A stretch of DNA of 43,354 nucleotides from Candidatus Kapaibacterium sp. (GTDB taxonomy: Bacteria > Bacteroidota > Ignavibacteria > Kapaibacteriales > Kapaibacteriaceae), in the NCBI GenBank assembly GCA_018883125.1, contig VEQR01000020.1:1-43354 (forward strand). Reading direction: 5' to 3'. The translations under genes were made by a program, and so were the position numbers. The notes below the pieces were generated by a model, which saw only the letters and a list, made by a program, of their open reading frames with translations, was not told where the DNA came from and did not search any database. Positions 1,170-43,354 of the stretch are shown here, in pieces (position 1 is the first letter of the stretch; the number at the start of each line of letters is the position of its first letter).

Positions 1170-2468
1170 GACGGCCGATCCGGCTTCGCCTCGGGCGATC
1201 ATCAGCATGGCCTTGGCAAAGCGCTCCATCTCGCCTACGGTGGTGTACACGGAGGGGGCTACCCGAAGCCCCTTAAAGTCCTCATGTCCGATGGATACCG
1301 TGAATATGCGATGTTTATCCAGGAGATAGCTGGAGACCTTTCCGGGTTCTGTTCCGTCGATGTGCACCAGCCGCAATCCGCACTGGTTCGCATCATCTGT
1401 GATGTCCGTAAGGAATCGCACGTTCTCCATCTTCTCCAGCTGGTCCGTCCATACACGATGCAGATGTCGAAGACGGGCCGCCTTGCGCTCCGCTCCGATA
1501 GCTCGGTTAAAGGCGATGGATTCGATAAGCGCGTTGTGCATGGCCGCCGGATGCGTGCCGATCTCTTCGAACTTTCGGATGTTGGCATCCATGTCCTTCG
1601 GTGCCGACATCAGCGGCCACACATCGGCGATCTTGTCCTTCTTGACGTAGAGCATGCCGGTGCCGATCGGACCGAGGAACCATTTGTGCAGAGAGGTGCC
1701 GAAGTACTCGCACTCGAGATCCTTCTGCGTGAACGGGAAGTGCTGGAAGGAATGGGCACCATCAACGATGCAACGAATCCCTCGCTTTGCGGCTAATCGA
1801 CAGATATCGCGTACCGGCAGTATCTGACCTGTGAGAAAGACCACGTGGGAAACATGGATCACCTTTGTGCGGTCAGTGATTCCGGCTTCGATGGCATCGA
1901 CGACGTCCTGACGTCGTTTCAGCGGAGTTGGAAAGCCAACCTTCTTCAGCACGACGCCGTCTCTTCGGACCCGCTGATCCCATGTTATCAGCATACGCGG
2001 ATAGTCATGCGTGGTGGTTAGCACCTCATCGCCCCGTTCCATCGTAATGCCGAATTGCAGCGTTTCCAGCGCCTCACTGGCGTTGCGCATAATGGCGATC
2101 TCCTCAGGACTCACTGCAAAGAGATCGGCGAGACCCTCGCGGATAGTCTCTACCTGCGGCTCCTGGTGACGCCACATCTCGTATGCCGGCATATTGTTGG
2201 CCTGTTCGGTATAGCGGCGAAAGGCCTGCTGTACGGTACGGGGCGAGGGAGACACACCACCATTGTTCAAGTTGATGATGGAGCGATCAACGTCAAATGC
2301 CTGCTGCACAGTAGCCCAGTAATCTTCGTCGTTGGCCACCAGTGAGGCAGGAACATTTGGAAGGGCAGTCGGCAGCCAATTGGTAACGGATGCTAGTGCT
2401 TCCGATGCGAAGAGGGCCGTTGGACCGAGCGCCGCTAGCGAGCGCAATACCGTTCGACGTGATGTCAT
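1149..2468 (-). CDS. PLP-dependent class V aminotransferase-family protein, Tat-exported
   Basis: 439 residues. The N-terminus has a twin-arginine signal (SRRTVLRSLAALGPTALFA, cleavage near SEALA), pointing to export as a folded cofactor-bound enzyme. The body is a fold-type I, class V aminotransferase (isopenicillin-N-epimerase/cysteine-desulfurase-like). Visible motifs are HVSHVVFLTGQILPV, the cofactor Asp and following His in IVDGAHSFQHF, and the Schiff-base lysine in GTSLHKWFLGPIGTG. Length fits the family. The exact substrate is not predictable; the Tat signal argues against an IscS-like housekeeping role. It is transcribed alone, divergently from gcvT 59 bases away and convergent with the transposase-like gene. 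Confidence 0.85.
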   Translation of the reverse strand: MTSRRTVLRSLAALGPTALFASEALASVTNWLPTALPNVPASLVANDEDYWATVQQAFDVDRSIINLNNGGVSPSPRTVQQAFRRYTEQANNMPAYEMWRHQEPQVETIREGLADLFAVSPEEIAIMRNASEALETLQFGITMERGDEVLTTTHDYPRMLITWDQRVRRDGVVLKKVGFPTPLKRRQDVVDAIEAGITDRTKVIHVSHVVFLTGQILPVRDICRLAAKRGIRCIVDGAHSFQHFPFTQKDLECEYFGTSLHKWFLGPIGTGMLYVKKDKIADVWPLMSAPKDMDANIRKFEEIGTHPAAMHNALIESIAFNRAIGAERKAARLRHLHRVWTDQLEKMENVRFLTDITDDANQCGLRLVHIDGTEPGKVSSYLLDKHRIFTVSIGHEDFKGLRVAPSVYTTVGEMERFAKAMLMIARGEAGSAVSVDVKG

Positions 2469-2527
2469 GCAGAAACTCCCTGGTGCACTGACTGGTTATA
2501 TTCGCAACTCACTTACGAAGGTACGAC

Positions 2528-3619
2528 ATGAAGACGACGAAGTTCCACGCCCTCCACCTTGCTGCCGGTGCAAAGATGGTATCGTTTGCCGGGTTTGAGA
2601 TGCCAATCCAGTACCCCACGGGCATCATCGCCGAACACAAGATCGTTCGCTCGGGTGTTGGCATTTTCGACGTTTCGCACATGGGCGAGTTCTTCGTATC
2701 GGGCCCTGATGCTCTGGCCCTGATTCAACAGATCACAGTGAACGACGCTTCGAAGCTCACACCGGGCAAGGCTCAATACTCTGCCCTTCCCCGTCCGGAT
2801 GGCGGACTTGTAGATGACCTGCTCGTATACATGCTTGCTGAGAACTCCTACCTGCTTGTCGTGAACGGCGCAAACATCGAAAAAGACTGGGCATGGGTCA
2901 GCCAGCACGCAGCCGCCTATCCGAATCTCGACCTTACCAATCGCAGCGACGAGTTCAGTCTCCTTGCCGTACAGGGCCCAAAGAGTATCGAGACACTTCA
3001 GAAGCTGACCTCAACAGACCTCGAAAGTATCCCGTACTATGGCTTTGCCGAAGGAACGCTGGCAGGGGTGCCGATGATCCTTTCGCGCACAGGCTATACG
3101 GGCGAGATCGGATTCGAGCTCTACTTCACTGGCGATGAAACCGTTGCTGCTACAGTTGTATCGGCTCTCTTCGATGCAGGCAGCGAGCATGGCATTGCGT
3201 GGATTGGTCTTGGTGCACGCGACACGCTGCGTCTTGAGAAGGGATACTGCCTATACGGCAACGACATCACCGACGATACCAACCCAATCGAGGCTGGTCT
3301 CGGATGGATCACCAAGCTGGCCAAGGGTTCATTCAACGGCAGCGACGTGATAGCAGCAGTCAAGGAAGCGGGCCCGACACGGAAACTTGTCGGCTTCAAG
3401 ATGCTCACGGAAAAGCTTATTCCGCGTAGTGGCTATCCAATCATGCACAACGGTGCGGCGGTCGGTTCTGTGACGAGTGGCAACCAATCGCCAACACTTG
3501 GCGTCGGTATCGGCCTTGGGTACGTTCCGACGGATCTGTCTGGCCCGGGCACAACGATCGAGATCTCGGCTCGCGGAACGACATTCCAGGCTGAGGTAAT
3601 CAAGATCCCATTCTGCTGA
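2528..3619 (+). CDS. gcvT: Aminomethyltransferase, glycine cleavage system T protein
   Basis: 363 residues, the usual length. GcvT transfers the methylene group from the aminomethyl-lipoyl H protein to tetrahydrofolate and releases ammonia. Recognisable family blocks are MVSFAGFEMPIQYPTGIIAEH at the N-terminus, GVGIFDVSHMGEF, LSRTGYTGEIGFELYF, and the C-terminal barrel with TSGNQSPTLGVGIGLGYV. The ATG at 2528 has GAAGG six bases upstream. The H and P proteins are not in this window, so gcvT is unlinked from the rest of the system here. A short GC-rich stretch without a clear terminator hairpin separates it from the convergent RlpA-like gene. Confidence 0.95.
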   Translation: MKTTKFHALHLAAGAKMVSFAGFEMPIQYPTGIIAEHKIVRSGVGIFDVSHMGEFFVSGPDALALIQQITVNDASKLTPGKAQYSALPRPDGGLVDDLLVYMLAENSYLLVVNGANIEKDWAWVSQHAAAYPNLDLTNRSDEFSLLAVQGPKSIETLQKLTSTDLESIPYYGFAEGTLAGVPMILSRTGYTGEIGFELYFTGDETVAATVVSALFDAGSEHGIAWIGLGARDTLRLEKGYCLYGNDITDDTNPIEAGLGWITKLAKGSFNGSDVIAAVKEAGPTRKLVGFKMLTEKLIPRSGYPIMHNGAAVGSVTSGNQSPTLGVGIGLGYVPTDLSGPGTTIEISARGTTFQAEVIKIPFC

Positions 3620-3651
3620 GCCCCCTCCGAACTGTTGCCGACGCGTTCAAC

Positions 3652-4476
3652 CTATCGACTGTCAGTCTCGTCGATGTCGTCTGCCTCCTCAACCGCGGAA
3701 TCCACCACGTGAATGCTGATTCGAGCCGTGCCGGCACGGATCATATCGAGGTCGATAGCCGCCTGCTTTGATAGGTCGATCATCCGAGTGCTCTTCCATG
3801 GTCCACGGTCAGTAACGCGTACCACAACCTGCCGACCGTTGGAGAGATTCGTCACAAGCAGCTTGGTGTTGAATGGCAACCAGCGATGTGCGCACGTCCG
3901 GGCATGCATGTTGAATGTCTCACCGCTCGACGTCTTCTTGCCATGGAATGCATCACCATAGTATGATGCGATACCCGTATCGGCCGTTGATCGCAAGACC
4001 ATTGCAGCGATCGTATCACTTAGTGTGCGTCCTGAAGCAACCTTTCCAGATGCGGCAATCCGACGAACGCCAACAACATGCGTGCTATCCTTTGCGGTTT
4101 GAACAACAATAGTCGAATCGGCACGCGCCCTAGCCGGTTCGGATGCGGCACGTTTGCTCGTTGAATCGGGTACCGCCAGCGATTGCAGCAACTCCAGTTC
4201 TCGACGTTCAGCGGCTAGTACTGCTTTGCGAAGAGAGTCACTGCGCATGCGCACCAGCATCGATTCAACACGCAGACTGTCACTGATTTTCCATTGTCGA
4301 TCCCAGACAGCACGGAGACTATCCGAGGCGCGCCGGTCTCGCTCCATCGATCGCCGCACAATCTTCAGTGCCTGCGCTGTAGAATCCGGCAGCGCTGCCG
4401 TCTGTGCAGTAACCGTCATCGTTGTGATGGCAACGAGACCGAATAGGTGGGCAAGGATCTTCAGCGACGCTGTCAC
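3652..4476 (-). CDS. RlpA-like double-psi beta-barrel protein (septal ring lytic transglycosylase family)
   Basis: 274 residues: signal peptide (about 1-25, ..TVTAQ), a long charged, Arg/Ser-rich helical region (about 40-130) likely to form a coiled coil, then a C-terminal double-psi beta-barrel. The barrel carries the RlpA signature GIASYYGDAFHGKKTSSGE with NMHARTCAHR, LPFNTKLLVTNL and RVTDRGPW, followed by a helical end with IDLSKQAA. RlpA proteins bind or cleave denuded glycan at the septum. There is no SPOR domain, so septal targeting, if any, would come from the helical region. It ends 9 bases before the upstream mannose-1-phosphate guanylyltransferase stop, suggesting co-transcription with it. 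Confidence 0.85.
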   Translation of the reverse strand: MTASLKILAHLFGLVAITTMTVTAQTAALPDSTAQALKIVRRSMERDRRASDSLRAVWDRQWKISDSLRVESMLVRMRSDSLRKAVLAAERRELELLQSLAVPDSTSKRAASEPARARADSTIVVQTAKDSTHVVGVRRIAASGKVASGRTLSDTIAAMVLRSTADTGIASYYGDAFHGKKTSSGETFNMHARTCAHRWLPFNTKLLVTNLSNGRQVVVRVTDRGPWKSTRMIDLSKQAAIDLDMIRAGTARISIHVVDSAVEEADDIDETDSR

Positions 4477-4485
4477 AACAAGGGG

Positions 4486-5577
4486 CTAAAAGTGCTTTGA
4501 TATCTGACGTCGTCGGAGCAGATCAACGAGATCACGTACATTCTCGGTCATGCCGCGACGGCAGATCAGAACAGACTGCTCGGTTTCGATGACCATGATG
4601 TTATCCATGTCGATCACGCCAACAAGTCTGCCCGAGCTGGCTGAAACAAGGCTATTGGATGTGCGGATCGCCATAACCGTCCCCTCTATCACGTTGTTCT
4701 TCCCGTCTTTGAGCGACATTCGATAGAGTTCATCCCACGTACCGAGATCGCTCCAGCCAAACGAACCTTCGACCACACCGATCGTGGGGTCGCGCTCCAG
4801 CACCGCTACATCAAACGACACCGATCTCATTTGACGATAGAGTGCCTCGAGTTCCGATCCCTCGTCCGTGTTTCGATTGCGTCTCTGCCACTGATGGATA
4901 AGGGGCGCATGATCAGGCATGTACTCGTCAACCGCCCGAAGGATCGCTCCGGCTGTGGCCACCACAATTCCACTGTTCCAGGCAAAATCTCCAGCGTCAA
5001 GGAATCGCTGTGCAGTAGCGGCATCCGGTTTTTCCGCAAATGTGAGGACGGCCTTTGCATGCCCCTTGACCAGAGGGTTGTCACATGGAATGGGATCGCC
5101 GACTTGGATATAGCCGTAGCCGGTCTCAGGCCGAGTTGGCATCACTGCGATGGTCATAATCCTGTCGAGATCCACGGCTGCCGTGCAGGCTTGGTCAACC
5201 ACAACCTGAAACTCCCGGACATTATGTATGACGTGGTCGCTCGGCAGAACTACCATCACGACATCCGAACCGTGACGCTCGGCAACAACTGCGGCCGACA
5301 GGGCAATTGCCGGTCCGGTATTTCGTCCAAATGGCTCGCTGATGATCCGCTCCGGTGAGACCATGGGTAGCTGATCGACCACATGGTGAGACAGATCGGC
5401 AGTGGTAACAACGTAGACGTCGTCAGGTGTGACCATGGGAAGAAGCCGCGCTACCGTGTTCTGGATCAGCGTCCCTTCACCCAGAGCATGAACGAACTGC
5501 TTGGGCTTCCGTTCGGTGCTTCTCGGCCAAAGGCGGATACCGAGTCCACCGGCCATGACAACGGCGACGATCTTCAT
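4486..5577 (-). CDS. manC: Mannose-1-phosphate guanylyltransferase
   Basis: About 363 residues from the ATG at 5577 (MKIVAVVMAGGLGIRLWPRS). The frame is open upstream but the extra residues do not fit the family. The protein makes GDP-mannose from mannose-1-phosphate and GTP. Evidence is the nucleotidyltransferase loop GGLGIRLWPRS with a following KPKQF, the block SEPFGRNTGPAIALSA, GYGYIQVGDPI, FAEKPDAATAQRFL, FAWNSGIVVATA, and the C-terminal SFGWSDLGTWDEL. It lacks the C-terminal phosphomannose isomerase domain found in the bifunctional ManC/AlgA form. Its product feeds polysaccharide or glycoprotein synthesis. It is divergently arranged with the outer-membrane barrel gene. Confidence 0.9.
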   Translation of the reverse strand: MKIVAVVMAGGLGIRLWPRSTERKPKQFVHALGEGTLIQNTVARLLPMVTPDDVYVVTTADLSHHVVDQLPMVSPERIISEPFGRNTGPAIALSAAVVAERHGSDVVMVVLPSDHVIHNVREFQVVVDQACTAAVDLDRIMTIAVMPTRPETGYGYIQVGDPIPCDNPLVKGHAKAVLTFAEKPDAATAQRFLDAGDFAWNSGIVVATAGAILRAVDEYMPDHAPLIHQWQRRNRNTDEGSELEALYRQMRSVSFDVAVLERDPTIGVVEGSFGWSDLGTWDELYRMSLKDGKNNVIEGTVMAIRTSNSLVSASSGRLVGVIDMDNIMVIETEQSVLICRRGMTENVRDLVDLLRRRQISKHF

Positions 5578-36835: not shown

Positions 36836-38188
36836 ATGGCCACGTCAGGCAGACAGCTATTCGGTCATCCAATCGGTTTGTCGTATTTGTTCTTCACCGA
36901 AATGTGGGAGCGCTTCAGCTTCTACGGCATGCGGGCCCTGCTGGTGCTGTACATGACGAAGTACCTGCTGCTGGATCCGCAGATCTCGGGCAGTGTGCTT
37001 GGCTACACGGCGCTGTCGAACTTTCTGACGAGTCTCTTCGGACCCCTATCCGTGATCGGCATCTCTTCGCAGATCTACGGCCTCTACACTGGCTTTGTGT
37101 ACTTCACGCCGTTCATCGGTGGGTGGCTGGCAGACCGTCATCTCGGCAAGACGAATGCCGTGTACCTTGGTTCCATCTTCATGGCCATCGGACATTTCAT
37201 GATGGCGTTTGAGTCGATGTTCCTTCTTGCGCTGCTGTTCCTGATCATGGGCAACGGCATGTTCAAGCCGAACCTTGGCGCACAGGTTGGAACACTGTAT
37301 GAGCCGGGAGATCAGCGCATCGACAGTGCCTACACGATCTACTACATGGGTGTGAACCTCGGTGCATTCTTCTCACCATTGGTCTGCGGTACGCTTGGGC
37401 AGACATGGGGCTGGCACTGGGGATTTGGTGCTGCCGGCGTTGGCATGCTCATTGGCACCGTAGTGTATTGGATGGGCACGAAGTACCTCCCACAGCGGAA
37501 CCAGCGCGTTGTAGCGGCTACAGTTCAAGCAGGTGAGTCGGAGCAGGGATGGGTTCGCCCACTTATGGTGATCGGCTACCTCTGCTTTGTGAATATCCTG
37601 TTCTGGGGCGTTTACGAGCAGCAGGGCAATACTCTGCAGGTATGGGCCGATGAGAAGACAAATTGGTCGATCCTCGGGATCACTGTTCCGTCATCGTGGT
37701 TTCAGTCGCTGAACCCATTCTTCATCGTTCTGCTTGCCCCCTTGCTTAATCGGTTCTGGTCGTGGCAGCGCTCAAGTAAATCTGAGCCATCTACGGTGGT
37801 GAAGATGGCCATCGGCTGCATCTTCATGGCGGTTGCCTATCTGCTGATGATCGCCGTTGCCGGCATGGCGCAGGACGGACAGAAGCTCAACCTCATCTGG
37901 GTTACCAGCGTTGTGTTCCTCTTCACTATCGGTGAGCTCTACCTCTCCCCCATCGGTCAAGCGATGGTCTCAAAGGTCGCCCCCGTGCGCATGGTCAGCA
38001 TGTTCATGGGCATCTGGTATCTCTCGAGCTTCTTCGGCAACTATTTGGCCGGCTACATCGGCTCGTACTACGACCGCATGGGTAACGAGAGTTACTTCAC
38101 CATCATGGTCGGCATGAGCCTCCTTGCCGTTGCCATGTTCCTGCTCCCACGCAAGAAGCTCAGCGCCATGCTGGGTGGAGAGAGGTAA
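36836..38188 (+). CDS. POT/PTR family proton-dependent oligopeptide transporter
   Basis: 450 residues, 12-14 helices. Family hallmarks: the E-x-x-E-R-F motif in FFTEMWERFSFYGMRALLVLYM, GFVYFTPFIGGWLADRHLGKTNAVYLGS, GNGMFKPNLGAQVGTLYE, and a second-half FTIGELYLSPIGQAMVSKVAP. These transporters import di/tripeptides with protons. It is a single gene. The palindrome array at 38206-38511 follows it directly, separating it from the convergent polyferredoxin gene. Confidence 0.93.
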   Translation: MATSGRQLFGHPIGLSYLFFTEMWERFSFYGMRALLVLYMTKYLLLDPQISGSVLGYTALSNFLTSLFGPLSVIGISSQIYGLYTGFVYFTPFIGGWLADRHLGKTNAVYLGSIFMAIGHFMMAFESMFLLALLFLIMGNGMFKPNLGAQVGTLYEPGDQRIDSAYTIYYMGVNLGAFFSPLVCGTLGQTWGWHWGFGAAGVGMLIGTVVYWMGTKYLPQRNQRVVAATVQAGESEQGWVRPLMVIGYLCFVNILFWGVYEQQGNTLQVWADEKTNWSILGITVPSSWFQSLNPFFIVLLAPLLNRFWSWQRSSKSEPSTVVKMAIGCIFMAVAYLLMIAVAGMAQDGQKLNLIWVTSVVFLFTIGELYLSPIGQAMVSKVAPVRMVSMFMGIWYLSSFFGNYLAGYIGSYYDRMGNESYFTIMVGMSLLAVAMFLLPRKKLSAMLGGER

Positions 38189-38205
38189 TCACGAGCGACA
38201 TGTAG

Positions 38206-38511
38206 GGGCGAGACGCAGTCTCGCCCGCAGGGTTTGCATCGTCTACCACCTTTCGTTCAACGGGCGAGACTGCGTCTCGCCCCTACATGCGTCTACCACC
38301 TTTCGTTCAACGGGCGAGACGCAGTCTCGCCCGCAGGGTTTGCATCGTCTACCACTTTTCGTTCAACGGGCGAGACTGCGTCTCGCCCCTACATGCGTCT
38401 ACCACCTTTCGTTCAACGGGCGAGACTGCGTCTCGCCCCTACATGCGTCTACCACCTTTCGTTCAACGGGCGAGACTGCGTCTCGCCCCTACATGCGTCT
38501 CGCCCCTACTC
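38206..38511. repeat. Array of six palindromic repeats with two unit lengths
   Basis: Six 21-bp palindromes start at 38206, 38262, 38312, 38368, 38418 and 38468: arms GGGCGAGAC and GTCTCGCCC with centre GCA (copies 1, 3) or TGC (copies 2, 4, 5, 6). Start-to-start distances are 56, 50, 56, 50, 50. Linkers share GTCTACCACCTTTCGTTCAA (one copy has ACTTTTC). GCA copies are followed by a GCAGGGTTTGCATC insert, TGC copies by CCTACATGC. Copy 1 has a TGTAGG left flank, the reverse complement of that, so it is inverted. A partial unit ends at 38511. The spacers are identical, so it is not CRISPR. Confidence 0.95.
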
Positions 38512-39601
38512 TCAACACTCCTCTTGGGCATACGGTGGAGCATACGCCGCAGCCGACGCAGGAGGCGCGCTTGATGGTTTCGCCGCGTTCGGCGTAGGAG
38601 CGCACGTCGATGCCCATTTCGCAATAGGTGCTGCAGTTGCCGCAGGAGATGCACTGGCCGGGGTTGACCTCGATGCGGAAGCGGGAGGCATACTTCTGAA
38701 GAATGCCGAGAATGGCGGCCATGGGGCATCCGAACCGACACCAGATGCGGGCACCGAAGATCGGGTAGAAGCCAACGCCAATGACGCCGGAGAAGAGTCC
38801 ACCAATGACGAAGCCGTAGATGCGGTTGGTATGGCCGACAACACTCGATAGTTCAGGATTGGGATTTACGTGCTGCTGCCATAGCAGGATCGTAATGATC
38901 GTGATGATGCTCAGCACCGGATAGATGGTCCACCGCTCAAGGGTCCAACTACGCTGCGACGTGCCGCTGAGGTGACGTAGGTCGTCGCCTACTGTTTCGG
39001 CCAGCGCTCCGCAGCCGCACACCCAGGAGCAATACCAGCGCTTGCCATAGAAGTAGGTGAGAAGGGGCGTGGCAAGCACCAGCAGGATGATACTCCACCA
39101 TGCAGCAAAGGTCATCAGCGCGTCGTGACTCTGCATCATCTGCGTCAGGGATGATGGGAACAGGTACTCGGGCTTGAGCGGCCAGAAGTAAGAAAAGTAG
39201 AACTCGCCCCTACCACTGCGCACGAGCATGGCAGGAATGAGATACGCCGCAATGCACTGCACGACAACGAGCACAACGGTTCGGTAGCGGTGGTACCGCT
39301 CGTGACCATTCCTCATGAGCGTGCGCGCGCCAAAGAGGACGACGGCCAGCGTGTAGATAGTACCGTAGAGGAACCACACATCGGCCGGACGTCCGCGCAG
39401 CAGGTGCGATAATCCGTCAAGCAGGCGCGTCAGCACATCAAGTGCCGACGGGAACCAGTACACACAGACGTAGAAGCTGGTCATCACCGCAGCCAGCACG
39501 TAGCGCAGCCACGGACGTCGTTCAAGACTGCCGGTCATCGTGGTGGACCGCCCAGCCCCCTTCGGAAGAATGATCTGCACCGGTTGCTGCATGCCACTCA
39601 T
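38489..39601 (-). CDS. NapH/NosR-like membrane polyferredoxin
   Basis: 370 residues. About six membrane helices with two cysteine pairs at the membrane faces (WYCSWVCGCGAL and WCRFGCPMAA), typical of NapH/RdxA/NosR-type proteins, then two [4Fe-4S] motifs: CISCGNCSTYCEMG and CVGCGVCSTVCPRG. It likely moves electrons across or along the membrane. Its stop codon and the last residues (RVGARRM) lie inside the palindrome array, so the array has reached into the 3' end of this gene. The start overlaps the FAD oxidoreductase stop by 4 bases, so the two form one electron-transfer unit. Confidence 0.88.
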   Translation of the reverse strand: MSGMQQPVQIILPKGAGRSTTMTGSLERRPWLRYVLAAVMTSFYVCVYWFPSALDVLTRLLDGLSHLLRGRPADVWFLYGTIYTLAVVLFGARTLMRNGHERYHRYRTVVLVVVQCIAAYLIPAMLVRSGRGEFYFSYFWPLKPEYLFPSSLTQMMQSHDALMTFAAWWSIILLVLATPLLTYFYGKRWYCSWVCGCGALAETVGDDLRHLSGTSQRSWTLERWTIYPVLSIITIITILLWQQHVNPNPELSSVVGHTNRIYGFVIGGLFSGVIGVGFYPIFGARIWCRFGCPMAAILGILQKYASRFRIEVNPGQCISCGNCSTYCEMGIDVRSYAERGETIKRASCVGCGVCSTVCPRGVLRVGARRM

Positions 39602-40881
39602 TTCGCCACTCCCACAAAGGCCGGCACAAACTCCGCATTGAACATCACGTCACGTAACTCTTCGAGAGCATGGTCAAGGGGCTTGCACTGCGCGATCCAT
39701 TGCTCGCACGTGCTCTGACGCAAGCGAAGGCCAAGAGCATGGATGCCCACGACGCATCGCTTAGCGTCGTGTACAATGCGCAGACATCGAGAGTCGTTGG
39801 TGTCTGTTAGCAGAACGCTGCTGGCGCTGTCTGATTCAGCGGGCACACGTCCATAGGTTGACCATTCGAGATCGAAGAACTTTGCGCTGTTGTACTCTAT
39901 GGGCTCGCAAAACGGCTCGTCGCTTCCGAGAAGAATCTCCGCCAGATGCTCCCCATGCATACGTCCGGCATACCAGGTCTGTTGCACGCCCCATGGAAGC
40001 TGCGCACAATCGCCGATGGCGTAGATGATGGATTTCCGCATTCGCGGGAATGACGTCGCATTGCTCGTCCGGAACCATTCATCAACAACGATACCATCGT
40101 CAACCGTAACGCCTGCATCCTTTGCGAGTTGCGTTCGTGGCACAACCCCTGTTGCCACAACCACAACGTCGGCCGGGATCACCGTTCCGTCACTGAGCGT
40201 CACGTGGTCAACCCGACCATCACCATCATGATCCTCGATAGAGCTGACCGTGGTCGTCACCCGCACACCGATGCCGTGCTGTTGCAGATGCCTCGTGACG
40301 AGTTGCGATTCAAATCGAGGGAGCATGTTTCCATAGAACCCATGCTCTCTGACGACAGATGTAATGCTGCTCCCCTGGCGCGCATGCATGTGCGTGGCCA
40401 TAATCTCGGCTGCTTCCACACCGATTAGTCCACCACCGATCACCACGCCATGGTGAGCCCCCTTCAAGGAGTCATCCAGCGCGGCAACGTCCTGCATCTG
40501 GGTGTAGGTGTGAACGCCATGCAGAGATGTGTTGAGTCCGGTTGGGACATTCGGCCTCGACCCTGTTGCAAGGACAATCACGTCAGCCCCAAGCACAGTA
40601 CCGTTGCTGAGGTGCACCTGCTTGGCCTCTGCATCAATTCGCTCTACATGTCCCGTCACTCGACTGATACCAAGTGCATCCCAGGACTCGTCGGGAAAGG
40701 ACTTCAAATGCTCCATCCTCAGCTGTCCGGTTGAGAGATACATCATCGCCGGACGCGAGAAATGATAAGGGGCTTCATCGGAGATGAGAGTCACCATGAG
40801 CTCTTCGCCGCGCCCACGCTCCTTGAGCCTGCGGGCAAGCGTTGCTCCGGCTATGCCGTTACCGATGATGAGGATGTGCAT
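39598..40881 (-). CDS. FAD-dependent NAD(P)/pyridine nucleotide-disulfide-type oxidoreductase
   Basis: 427 residues. FAD-binding IIGNGIAGATLARRL at the N-terminus, VIVLATGSRPNVP, a second dinucleotide fold HHGVVIGGGLIGVEAAEIM, the ATG-type motif VVVATGVVPRTQLAKDAG, and AIGDCAQLPW (FAD). This matches the rubredoxin/nitrite-reductase-like reductase group without a redox-active Cys pair. It likely passes electrons from NAD(P)H to the adjacent polyferredoxin, or the reverse. The start codon and about 16 coding bases lie within a 28-bp direct repeat (40866-40893) duplicated at 43011-43038. No Shine-Dalgarno is visible before the ATG. Confidence 0.9.
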   Translation of the reverse strand: MHILIIGNGIAGATLARRLKERGRGEELMVTLISDEAPYHFSRPAMMYLSTGQLRMEHLKSFPDESWDALGISRVTGHVERIDAEAKQVHLSNGTVLGADVIVLATGSRPNVPTGLNTSLHGVHTYTQMQDVAALDDSLKGAHHGVVIGGGLIGVEAAEIMATHMHARQGSSITSVVREHGFYGNMLPRFESQLVTRHLQQHGIGVRVTTTVSSIEDHDGDGRVDHVTLSDGTVIPADVVVVATGVVPRTQLAKDAGVTVDDGIVVDEWFRTSNATSFPRMRKSIIYAIGDCAQLPWGVQQTWYAGRMHGEHLAEILLGSDEPFCEPIEYNSAKFFDLEWSTYGRVPAESDSASSVLLTDTNDSRCLRIVHDAKRCVVGIHALGLRLRQSTCEQWIAQCKPLDHALEELRDVMFNAEFVPAFVGVAK

Positions 40882-40893
40882 GGGAGGTGAAAT
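40866..40893. repeat. 28-bp direct repeat, copy A (overlaps start of FAD oxidoreductase)
   Basis: Identical over 28 bases to 43011-43038, same orientation, 2145 bp apart. On the minus strand it contains the 12 bases before the ATG and the first 16 coding bases of the oxidoreductase (Met-His-Ile-Leu-Ile plus one base). Bases just outside the repeat differ between copies. Confidence 0.95.
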
Positions 40894-40948
40894 TATGGCA
40901 GAGGAGAATACTCAGGCTTAATGATAGAATGCCCGTAAGCCGTTACTT

Positions 40949-41362
40949 TCATCCAAGCAATATCAACTGAGCCCGATCAGCAATAGCGAGCGCAGATACT
41001 TTCTGCTTTGCTTTCGTGGATTCATCATCACTGTCATCCCAGAACCAACCTTCAATATTGGCATGACGCAATGGTGGCTCATCACTGAGGACATCTAACT
41101 CCGCATCCCGCACGTCACGTGCGGCGACTGCGGCACCAGCCTTTAAAGGACGTTGCTGCGGCGGAAGCCTGTTCCAAGTTTCACGAATAGCGTCTGCAGA
41201 AGCTACATTTCTGAAAACAGATTTGTTCCGATGCTTTTTGCTCGGAATAAAAGCTGAGTACTTCACTCTACTGTTTTGCAGGGCATAATGGTCGCGTTGA
41301 CATATGAAAGATAACAGCATCTCATCATCACCTACTATTATCGGCAATCCTGAATCAAGCAT
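40949..41362 (-). CDS. Uncharacterised protein with RHANI-GW motif (cassette gene 3)
   Basis: 137 residues from the ATG at 41362; a GTG at 41374 in the same frame gives a 20-base overlap with the previous gene. Visible motifs are CQRDHYALQNSRVKYSAFIP (residues 21-40), SVFR (48-51) and PPLRHANIEGWFWDDSDDE (96-114), then a helical end (KVSALAIADRAQLIL). This order (DHY..VK..AF, then R-H-A-N-I-x-G-W) recalls a small uncharacterised family I have seen described only as hypothetical. No enzyme, nuclease or membrane motif is evident. It overlaps gene 2 of the cassette and is read after it, so the two are probably translated together. Base composition is A+T-richer than the window average (23 G/C of 60 at 41221-41280). 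Confidence 0.65.
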   Translation of the reverse strand: MLDSGLPIIVGDDEMLLSFICQRDHYALQNSRVKYSAFIPSKKHRNKSVFRNVASADAIRETWNRLPPQQRPLKAGAAVAARDVRDAELDVLSDEPPLRHANIEGWFWDDSDDESTKAKQKVSALAIADRAQLILLG

Positions 41363-41834
41363 GTACCGGACCACACACAGATCTGATCAACTGGATCAAC
41401 TCATTCGGCAACGTCTCTCCGTTGAGCACCATTACACAATGGCCACGGTCACTACCATTAATCCATGCAACTGAAAGTCGATTCGAATTGTGGATGCCCA
41501 CACCGATTGCTCGACCGCGTGAAGGCATCCAGTCGAACTCAATTGAACCATCGGTAGTTGTGGAGACGCCGGGCATCGGCATGCCTATGGGCACAGCGTC
41601 GACAAACTTTCGGGCTAGATCATAAGAGAACCTTGTGATCGGCATCGCATCATCCCCATCCCAGTCGGCAATGTGTCGCTCTCGAAACAATGATGTCAAT
41701 TCGCCCATTAAAATCAAACGGTCAGCATCGATCATTGAAGTACTGGTACTAATGCTCTCGTACAACCGCTTTAGCTGGTCATGAGTATCACGAGCTTGTT
41801 GCGAGTCAGCCGTGGTGGCGTAGACGGCTATCAT
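41355..41834 (-). CDS. Uncharacterised protein with DWDG motif (cassette gene 2)
   Basis: 159 residues. A helical N-terminus is followed by HIADWDGDDAMPITRFSYDLA (about 54-74), then PIGMPMPGVSTTTDGSIEFDWMP (82-104) and a strand-rich end SVAWINGSDRGHCVMVLNGETLPNELIQLI. The pattern W-D-G-x-x-A-x-P-I, followed by P-x-V and G-x-I-x-x-x-W, resembles small proteins often annotated as hypothetical. No signal peptide or membrane segment. It starts with a 4-base overlap to the TIGR04255-family gene upstream and overlaps gene 3 downstream. Function unknown. Confidence 0.7.
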   Translation of the reverse strand: MIAVYATTADSQQARDTHDQLKRLYESISTSTSMIDADRLILMGELTSLFRERHIADWDGDDAMPITRFSYDLARKFVDAVPIGMPMPGVSTTTDGSIEFDWMPSRGRAIGVGIHNSNRLSVAWINGSDRGHCVMVLNGETLPNELIQLIRSVCGPVHA

Positions 41835-42586
41835 GACATTCTCTCCAATTCGCTGAACATTTCATCCGTAATCGAGCTAGCAAAGACCCTATTCTTGAAT
41901 CCGCGTAAGAGCTCCAGCGAGAAGTTTATGGTATTGTTATCGTCGAGTTCGCAACGCATTTCAGTTTGTACGGCGATATCGATAATCACCGGTACATGGG
42001 TTGCTGTTGGGGGCTGCGAAACTGACAAGACGACTCCGCTGAGATCACTCTTCGAATCCAACACCGACAGACGGGAGAGGTACCCGCCAGAGCTGACGTC
42101 GTTGTCATTGAGTGCAACTGCACAGTTAAGGTATCGAGACAATTCGACTGCGCCCCTATCAAAGGGAACATTCACCATGTTGATGTAGCGCAAGCGGAGT
42201 GTACGAAGTAAAACTGGTTTAACTAGTTCCACGAACTGTATCCATCGATTCCTTATCTCAGGAGTATAATCGTCAAATGAACGGTAGGGGGATAGTCGAT
42301 TGAACGAAAATCCGGATGCACGATACTGCACGATCTGATCATTGGTAGCATTACGAAACCGTAGAGCATCAAGCGACTTCGTAACACCGCTGGTCGCTTC
42401 GTCAACGTTTAGTGTAACATCAGCTCTGCGTATCTGCTCCACACTAGGATAGTCAGCAGAAAGAGCAACCGCCAAGTCTGATTGAACACGTTCGAGATCG
42501 TAGTCTTGCGGCATGTCGCAGTCGAAATCGACAACAGCCTCCACGATGGGAGGATGTTTGAGCTTCGACAAAGAGGATGCGTCCAT
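41831..42586 (-). CDS. TIGR04255 family protein (cassette gene 1)
   Basis: 251 residues. The N-terminus LKHPPIVEAVVDFDCDMP is the recognition mark of the sporadically distributed TIGR04255 family; further typical is RASGFSFNRLSPYRSFDDY, RNRWIQFVELVKPVLLRTLRLRYINMVNVPF and a C-terminal helical stretch with ITDEMFSELERM. The family has no known function. Members occur patchily across distant bacteria, which suggests horizontal movement. It is the first gene of a three-gene coupled set. No Shine-Dalgarno is seen before the ATG at 42586. There is no obvious nuclease, ATPase or receptor motif. Confidence 0.75.
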   Translation of the reverse strand: MDASSLSKLKHPPIVEAVVDFDCDMPQDYDLERVQSDLAVALSADYPSVEQIRRADVTLNVDEATSGVTKSLDALRFRNATNDQIVQYRASGFSFNRLSPYRSFDDYTPEIRNRWIQFVELVKPVLLRTLRLRYINMVNVPFDRGAVELSRYLNCAVALNDNDVSSGGYLSRLSVLDSKSDLSGVVLSVSQPPTATHVPVIIDIAVQTEMRCELDDNNTINFSLELLRGFKNRVFASSITDEMFSELERMS

Positions 42587-42653
42587 GGTGTGTGCCGACA
42601 GTCGTGATTACCTGCGCGTCGCGCAATTTAACGACGTTGATTCTGCTTCCGAA

Positions 42654-42890
42654 TTACACCCGATATACCTTCATTACCTCGTCACCGTGTCTGTAGACGC
42701 CCTTCACAGCCATAAGACCACGCCACGGTTTATCGAATGGACGCGAGATGTCGCTGTTGAGGGTTGACCAGGCGGCTTCGTTGATCACTGCTTAGAGGGT
42801 TGTCTTGAGAGAACGGTAGGAATCATTCGCTCCAAGGAAGAGCAAAATCTGCTGGTCGACGGAACGATCTTCTACGCTTTGGTGCCTCAC
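42654..42890 (-). pseudogene. Short decayed gene interrupted by an in-frame TAA
   Basis: From a GTG at 42890, immediately after a TAA, the frame reads through SVEDRSVDQQILLFLGAND and SYRSLKTTL, meets TAA at 42792-42794, and continues in the same frame as AVINEAAWSTLNSDISRPF, DKPWRGLMAVKGVYRHGDEV, MKVYRV and a final TAA at 42654. Both halves are protein-like and join naturally if the TAA was once a sense codon (for example CAA). Family not recognised. If a GTG at 42788 is used, a 44-residue product could still be made. Confidence 0.5.
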
Positions 42891-43010
42891 TTAGTCTACC
42901 AGCGCTCTCAGCCGCTCGATGATCTCGTCATGTCAAGGCAAAGGCGCCTGCAGTGCCAGCAGATCCTCGATCGTGTCGATATCGTGAAAGACTGCGGGGT
43001 GACGCTCCTT
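42891..43010 (-). pseudogene. Truncated tail of a nucleotidyltransferase-like gene with in-frame TGA
   Basis: Directly inside repeat copy B the minus strand reads KERHPAVFHDIDTIEDLL, then ALQAPLP, TGA (42933-42935), and then HDEIIERLRALVD and TAA (42891-42893) in the same frame. The D-I-D-T-x-E-D-L element followed by a helix is typical of the C-terminus of MobA/MocA-like nucleotidyltransferases. The N-terminal domain is absent, cut at the repeat junction. Family assignment rests on this short motif only. Confidence 0.45.
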
Positions 43011-43038
43011 TGATGAGGATGTGCATGGGAGGTGAAAT
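43011..43038. repeat. 28-bp direct repeat, copy B
   Basis: Perfect copy of 40866-40893 in the same orientation. It contains an orphan ATG and first codons of the FAD oxidoreductase but is followed on the minus strand by unrelated sequence. It marks the outer end of the 2.1-kb accessory segment. Confidence 0.95.
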
Positions 43039-43354
43039 AACCAACCGTGACGGCAGCCCTCATCATGCTGGACCGGCCATACCTTGGTTCCGTGGGTGCT
43101 GGTCCAGCTGTTTGAAAATGAGATGTGTGAAATCTCATTGCTACTTACATCGAGTTGTCGCTCCGCCTCCTCGGCGGCCGCGCGTGGTGAAACCTCATAG
43201 ATGACCGCCACATCTAGTGTACCGCGGGTGAATGACGCGAAACAGAGCTTCTCGTTGCGCAGGATGCGGCTAAGCGAAACAACTCGCTTCTCATTTGGCT
43301 GGGAGAACATTCTATCGATCTGCCACGAACCACCCTCCTCGCATGTCAGATACT
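43039..43354 (-). CDS. Partial uncharacterised reading frame entering from the right edge
   Basis: The minus-strand frame is open from the edge to the TGA at 42933, crossing repeat copy B. The part nearest the edge (43150-43354) is protein-like: CEEGGSWQIDRMFSQPNEKR, SLSRILRNEKLCFASFTRG and VAVIYEVSPRAAAEEAERQL. After about 43147 it loses that character, and stops occur there in both other frames. Two inverted repeats follow: GCTGGACC at 43067-43074 with GGTCCAGC at 43101-43108, and AATGAGAT at 43117-43124 with ATCTCATT at 43132-43139. The second, followed by TTTTC on the minus strand, may be a terminator, so the real gene may end near 43145 with a frameshift. Family unknown. Confidence 0.4.

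Follow-up and report, generated by a model that had tools for sequence, protein, structure and literature searches.

We describe a three-gene operon in a 43,354-nucleotide stretch of DNA from Candidatus Kapaibacterium sp. (contig VEQR01000020.1), the whole of which we call the window. On balance, this trio is probably a horizontally acquired tripartite toxin-antitoxin-type module in which gene 3 would be the toxin, gene 2 the antitoxin and gene 1, a member of the TIGR04255 family, a shared helper. The operon is conserved as a unit in distant genomes, it entered the window by insertion, its last gene is predicted to have an ADP-ribosyltransferase (ART) fold with a conserved residue triad, and elsewhere that last gene is exchanged for other toxin types. 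The family of three-part modules to which the trio belongs is widespread and undescribed.

Layout and family assignment of the trio

All three genes lie on the minus strand, with the lengths and overlaps given in the initial annotation, as the open reading frame (ORF) coordinates confirm; the protein motifs it quoted were likewise all found in the trio sequences. Gene 1 (41831..42586; 251 residues) shares 4 bases (ATGA) with gene 2 (41355..41834; 159 residues, with a WDGxxAxP motif), which overlaps gene 3 (40949..41374) by 20 or 8 bases, depending on whether gene 3 starts at a GTG (141 residues) or at the ATG at 41362 (137 residues). The trio had been noted as A+T-richer than its surroundings, and its G+C content is indeed 48.7% versus 55.8% in the remainder of the window; among all equal-sized windows elsewhere the minimum is 50.9%. 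In being a tightly coupled operon of small genes that is mobile and sporadic, the trio has the attributes of a toxin-antitoxin module.

The placement of gene 1 in TIGR04255 was borne out by a full-length NCBIfam match (E 4.6e-30, 105.3 bits versus a cut-off of 30, profile positions 1-251 of 252). The NCBIfam entry, 'sporadTIGR04255', gives no function for the family, and in our literature search we found no paper that mentions it and no description of its operon context. Genes 2 and 3 had zero matches in NCBIfam, Pfam and PADLOC, and their relatives had no Pfam match. At E <= 1, no PADLOC model matched any trio protein, although whether that release includes CmdTAC, an anti-phage system considered below, was unchecked. 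Searching known structures by sequence gave no convincing match for any of the three proteins, and matches of gene 2 to designed helical proteins were judged to be artefactual. The earlier statement that the trio has no recognisable enzymatic domain holds at the level of sequence and fails at the level of structure, where an ART fold is predicted for gene 3.

Insertion of the trio into an oxidoreductase locus

The trio was inserted horizontally as a block. A 28-bp perfect direct repeat marks the two ends of the insertion, its downstream copy (40866..40893) being 100% identical to the upstream copy (43011..43038), and the segment between them (40894..43010; about 2.1 kb, or 2145 bp with one repeat copy) holds the trio and a methyltransferase remnant. 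In G136, a genome of the same genus, contig L117 has an empty site in which the repeat is single-copy. Positions 1-344 (97%) and 2460-4847 (94%) of the window's reverse strand align to adjoining, overlapping stretches of L117, and since L117 matches both flanks with one copy of the repeat, about 2.1 kb must have been inserted in the window. In the other genomes that were searched from the same genus and the same family, neither TIGR04255 nor gene 3 was present either. The target was a gene for a pyridine nucleotide-disulphide (FAD) oxidoreductase (39598..40881, minus strand; PF07992, 2e-49) that is 93% identical in G136; it lies outside the module and remains intact, and the downstream repeat spans its start codon. 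The empty site and the target duplication together show the horizontal movement proposed in the initial annotation. Inside the insert we saw neither a transposase nor an integrase gene.

Two further features of this region are worth recording. Roughly 50 bp inside the oxidoreductase gene there is a second occurrence of AAGGAGCGT, the sequence just past the upstream repeat copy (interval 43005-43045), and the target duplication may therefore once have been longer and later have been partly deleted; in the same interval the stop codon of the upstream gene (TAG in G136) is gone in the window. In addition, the end of the window's contig (43354) and position 1 of L117 break at the identical base (AGTATCTGACATG...), and this shared break suggests a repeat just past the window's end.

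The remnant carried with the trio (42657..42839, minus strand) is a type III DNA methyltransferase pseudogene with an in-frame stop, of which 61 C-terminal residues are left. Over those 61 residues it is 67% identical to the methyltransferase of locus L038 and 64% to that of L071. In L038 the methyltransferase ends 25 bp ahead of a trio, which is followed by a UvrD-like helicase; L071 is arranged in the same way, but a different gene replaces gene 1, and its methyltransferase matches the PADLOC model MTase_III (2.5e-111). A 621-aa ORF upstream of the L038 methyltransferase resembled a type III Res subunit; it had no PDB sequence match and was set aside. The window trio groups, with support 1.0, with its nearest relatives L110 and L111 (both found in genomes of the Verrucomicrobiota search), L034 (Kiritimatiellae) and L038 (Pseudomonadota), and so has moved between phyla.

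Recurrence of the operon in unrelated genomes

The module idea was to be abandoned if homologues of genes 2 and 3 proved absent from TIGR04255 loci elsewhere; in fact they accompany TIGR04255 genes in the same order and with the same overlap. The arrangement gene 1-gene 2-gene 3, with overlaps that are usually of 4 bases, was found in >30 further loci from at least five phyla (Bacteroidota, Nitrospirota, Desulfobacterota, Verrucomicrobiota and Pseudomonadota), as well as on viral contigs, and wherever the trio occurs gene 2 is its middle gene. Such recurrence in unrelated genomes puts the trio beyond chance. Scanning genome contigs with gene 3 gave 21 loci, most with a complete ordered trio; in six of them genes 2-3 follow a different protein of 219-225 aa, L018 has those two genes by themselves, and the L023 locus is interrupted by a contig end. 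In whole-genome searches, for which the phylum names of the samples are inferred, gene 3 was present in 4/296 genomes of the window's own phylum, 8/247 of a Desulfobacterota sample, 4/398 Pseudomonadota, 9/148 Nitrospirota and 4/145 Verrucomicrobiota, or 1-6% of genomes depending on the sample. Across 34 trios the three proteins have congruent pairwise distances (r 0.70-0.75, equalled in 0/2000 permutations), host kinship not being separated out in this figure.

TIGR04255 relatives were found on 10 viral contigs: the full trio is present on five (L125-L128, L130), genes 1-2 on L129 and remote versions on L131, L132 and L134, and one is cut. A 552-aa ORF upstream of the L130 trio looked integrase-like but had no Pfam hit, and we make no claim for it. 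Plasmid and phage collections contained no match to gene 2 or gene 3. L113 (5737-7429), from a genome of the order to which the window belongs, has a weakly HEPN-like gene and a 121-aa gene ahead of diverged genes 2 and 3.

Exchange of the third gene and the proposed role of TIGR04255

TIGR04255 genes that have no close gene 2 or gene 3 beside them are mostly also the first of three-gene operons. We classed the third genes of 52 TIGR04255 loci from three phyla, partly by eye and in a sample that holds near-duplicate pairs (L006/L007, L016/L017). ART-like third genes account for 23 of the 52. Known toxin types fill the slot in others: PemK in five (tested in L005, 4e-13; L138, 1e-18; L158, 2e-13), HEPN-like proteins in four (L161 above the Pfam cut-off at 1.5e-6, L083 below it, no hit for L154 or L163), PIN in one (1e-11) and HicA-like proteins in two (L166 below the cut-off, L167 by resemblance). 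The rest comprise three DUF7689 proteins (L159 tested, 4e-23), eight proteins of an unnamed family that share an N/Q-T/D-C-D-like motif, two of a HEAT-plus-171-aa type and four that are unclear or truncated. This exchange, together with the predicted fold of gene 3, supports the toxin-type role that had been suggested for the trio. In L137, L140, L146, L157, L165, L168 and L004, a member of the unnamed family follows a short second gene that itself comes after TIGR04255, and the members scanned had no Pfam family above the cut-off.

By profile comparison, remote second genes link to the window's gene 2 (1.3e-9, 2.2e-5, 1e-15) and remote third genes to its gene 3 (1.1e-5, 1.7e-9), with 3.6e-6 between two remote groups; direct comparison of gene 3 with the Bacteroidota group was not significant (0.13), and unlike pairs gave 0.09-0.78.

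Because the second gene changes with the type of toxin, we favor gene 2 as the cognate antitoxin of gene 3. By analogy with known three-part systems, TIGR04255 would then be the shared accessory, and its likeliest role would be that of a chaperone or sensor keeping the antitoxin-toxin pair stable. The gene 1 model (23 sequences; predicted local distance difference test score, pLDDT, 92.7) is a duplicated beta-alpha-beta4-alpha saddle. Its best Foldseek match is TBP (E 1.6e-3, prob 0.99) and its best VIA matches are guanido kinases and McsB (guanido kinase catalytic domain) at Z 8-9, scores that by calibration can mean a common arrangement only and from which no gene 1 function follows. The TBP match, and the fact that gene 1 is common to different toxins, could be taken to mean that TIGR04255 is itself the antitoxin, or a DNA/RNA-binding regulator with a TBP-like fold, and that gene 2 is the accessory. 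We consider this unlikely, as it is the small second gene that varies with the toxin in the PemK, PIN and HEPN versions, just as a cognate antitoxin would.

A predicted ADP-ribosyltransferase fold in gene 3

The AlphaFold2 model of gene 3 (25 sequences, pLDDT 96.2) has six strands in ART order, and its 24 best VIA matches are all ART-fold proteins. They include KptA/Tpt1 (Z 7.5 over 92 residues at 2.9 A), HopF-type proteins (6.2), DUF952 (5.1), DarT (4.8), RES (4.1), TreTu (4.0), Arr (3.5) and NarE (2.8); of these, HopF, DUF952 and TreTu we take to be ART folds. Its predicted fold places gene 3 in the ADP-ribosyltransferase superfamily as a small member. Searching BFVD with the model returned nothing that was both named and significant. 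A relationship of gene 3 to SH3-type MazF had also been considered and was abandoned once the structure model had been obtained.

In ARTs the active-site residues sit on strands 1, 2 and 5. Across 42 aligned gene 3 family members, the window included, the motif II Ser (strand 2; 41219..41221, minus strand) and the motif III His (start of strand 5; 41063..41065, minus strand) are present in 42/42, and motif I (strand 1; 41309..41311, minus strand) is Ser in the window and Arg in the other 41, so that the R-S-H triad is complete in 41/42. Remote third genes mostly keep the triad, and some vary (Y for H, A for S). The known ART clades are H-H-h, H-Y-[EDQ] and R-S-E (PMC9503650); the R-S-H of the family is a mixed pattern that fits none of them, and neither does the window's own S-S-H.

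The best fold match of gene 3 is the ART lobe of the tRNA 2'-phosphotransferase KptA/Tpt1, an enzyme that differs from gene 3 in its N-terminal lobe, which gene 3 lacks, and in its triad. ARTs of the H-H-h clade work in RNA repair (PMC9503650). Gene 3 might accordingly be imagined as a KptA-like 2'-phosphotransferase, an RNA repair or end-processing ART, with the trio mending damage done by other systems and poisoning nothing. This seems to us quite improbable: the triad is R-S-H and not H-H-h, PemK, HEPN and PIN toxins occupy the same slot, and among the neighbours read we noticed neither an RNA ligase nor a 2H partner.

Genomic neighbourhood and the possible benefit of the module

Some modules have neighbours with a possible bearing on function, drawn here from loci that were picked for apparent relevance and have no background rate. 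Type III methyltransferases lie near the modules of L071 and L158, PglZ of BREX (2e-82) near that of L156, type I and IIG restriction enzymes near those of L072, L030 and L020, and HsdM near that of L074. PIN and Xre-type genes are found near the modules of L023, L076 and L077, and in L108 a phage integrase precedes the trio by 32 bp. Given the other toxins found behind TIGR04255, and the restriction-modification (R-M), BREX and prophage neighbours of some modules, phage defence is the likeliest benefit, as judged from genomic context.

A different possibility is that the trio is a selfish addiction module, kept by post-segregational killing and bringing no defence benefit. The sporadic distribution of gene 3 given above, its presence on mobile elements and its occurrence beside VapBC-type and Xre-type genes are all consistent with such a life-style. 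We nevertheless regard it as very unlikely, as modules of this kind are rare on sequenced plasmids and some adjoin R-M and BREX genes.

The window's own copy of gene 3 deserves separate comment. Its motif I Ser is encoded by TCT, which is at least two base changes from any Arg codon, and a single sequencing error is therefore no explanation for it. Judging from this substitution, the window copy probably lacks full toxin activity, and it may be an inactive, toxin-dead survivor; reduced activity would fit a module left stranded after its methyltransferase neighbour had decayed. In L078/L145 (G677) and L079, gene 3 is split or truncated, apparently by frameshifts, a probable case of further effector loss. 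Gene 3 could also be a binding protein throughout, ART-like but catalytically dead, in a module that serves as a structural or regulatory complex. This would agree with the window's missing Arg and with the substitutions in some remote members, but the retention of all three residues in 41 of the 42 aligned sequences makes this highly improbable.

Proposed mechanism and relation to known systems

In the mechanism that we favor, gene 3 would be a small ART-fold effector that draws on NAD+ either to modify some cellular target or to deplete it, held in check by gene 2, and gene 1 would release the antitoxin-toxin pair upon infection or stress, as CmdC does in CmdTAC. There is precedent for such an arrangement. 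In CmdTAC, the closest worked-out case, the antitoxin helps the ART toxin to fold and is itself degraded afterwards, and the SecB-like chaperone is drawn off by a phage capsid protein (PMC11618068). The trio resembles CmdTAC in having three small genes, an ART-fold toxin candidate, a putative antitoxin and a third protein proposed as stabiliser or infection sensor. The two differ in that CmdC is SecB-like and the CmdT triad is H-Y-[EDQ], whereas the trio has a putative TIGR04255 helper of ~250 aa and an R-S-H triad; moreover, the trio begins with the gene for this helper and ends with that for the putative toxin. Toxin-antitoxin-chaperone (TAC) systems with SecB-like chaperones offer a second parallel, as one accessory serves several toxin-antitoxin pairs (PMC5105189, PMC6377645), although the accessory of the trio is not detectably SecB. 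Structural matches also connect gene 3 with the toxins DarT (of DarTG) and RES (of Xre-RES), but gene 3 is shorter and has R-S-H, and its partners have no DarG or Xre family match.

Several observations weigh against the toxin-antitoxin interpretation and should be set beside it. The ART matches of gene 3 are individually modest (Z <= 7.5, Foldseek E > 0.1), and we retain the assignment because they agree so consistently; even so, predicted folds are no proof of activity, and the window copy is the sole one of the 42 aligned without the motif I Arg. For gene 1, no SecB chain was among the fold-match rows shown, which does not exclude a SecB relation, and with none detected the chaperone role stands by analogy. 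Not every locus has the full trio: six in Desulfobacterota (L025, L028-L031, L033) carry instead of gene 1 a protein unrelated to it by sequence, as L071 does with yet another one (208-225 aa across these loci), and L018 (5528-6363) has genes 2 and 3 without gene 1. As many as 17 of the 52 sampled third genes are unclear or outside known toxin families. Finally, recurrence near known defence genes had been named as support for a system, and some modules adjoin R-M and BREX genes; many trios sit among housekeeping genes, and the proximity to defence genes comes without a control.

Some details of these loci may be added. The replacement for gene 1 (219-aa version) showed no detectable homology to TIGR04255 (hhalign 0.25-0.36), and by eye the order of its elements resembles that of TIGR04255. 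The L018 genes are flanked by GldG-like and DUF4340-like genes, named by eye. Elsewhere in the window, a short imperfect direct repeat array (38180-38600; translated ...STTFRSTGETASRP...) lies between the end of a transporter gene and the gene for an Fe-S protein.

Implications

Beyond the window, we see about an even chance that TIGR04255 proteins mark out a large and so far unrecognised class of tripartite toxin-antitoxin defence systems, in which one subunit with a TBP/guanido-kinase fold is combined with interchangeable antitoxin-toxin pairs, much as SecB-like chaperones are in TAC systems, though its fold is unrelated to theirs. On this proposal the pairs would span ART-like R-S-H, PemK, HEPN, PIN, HicA-like and several unknown types. 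The present analysis offers a testable function for TIGR04255, a family known by its number alone, and for two protein families that have no Pfam or NCBIfam model, and it predicts a new subfamily of small ADP-ribosyltransferases. For annotation it provides a simple rule, namely that a TIGR04255 gene is probably followed by two genes of which one encodes an antitoxin and the other a toxin. It also suggests that the pairing of one helper with many toxins arose more than once in bacteria, with SecB-like proteins and with TIGR04255.
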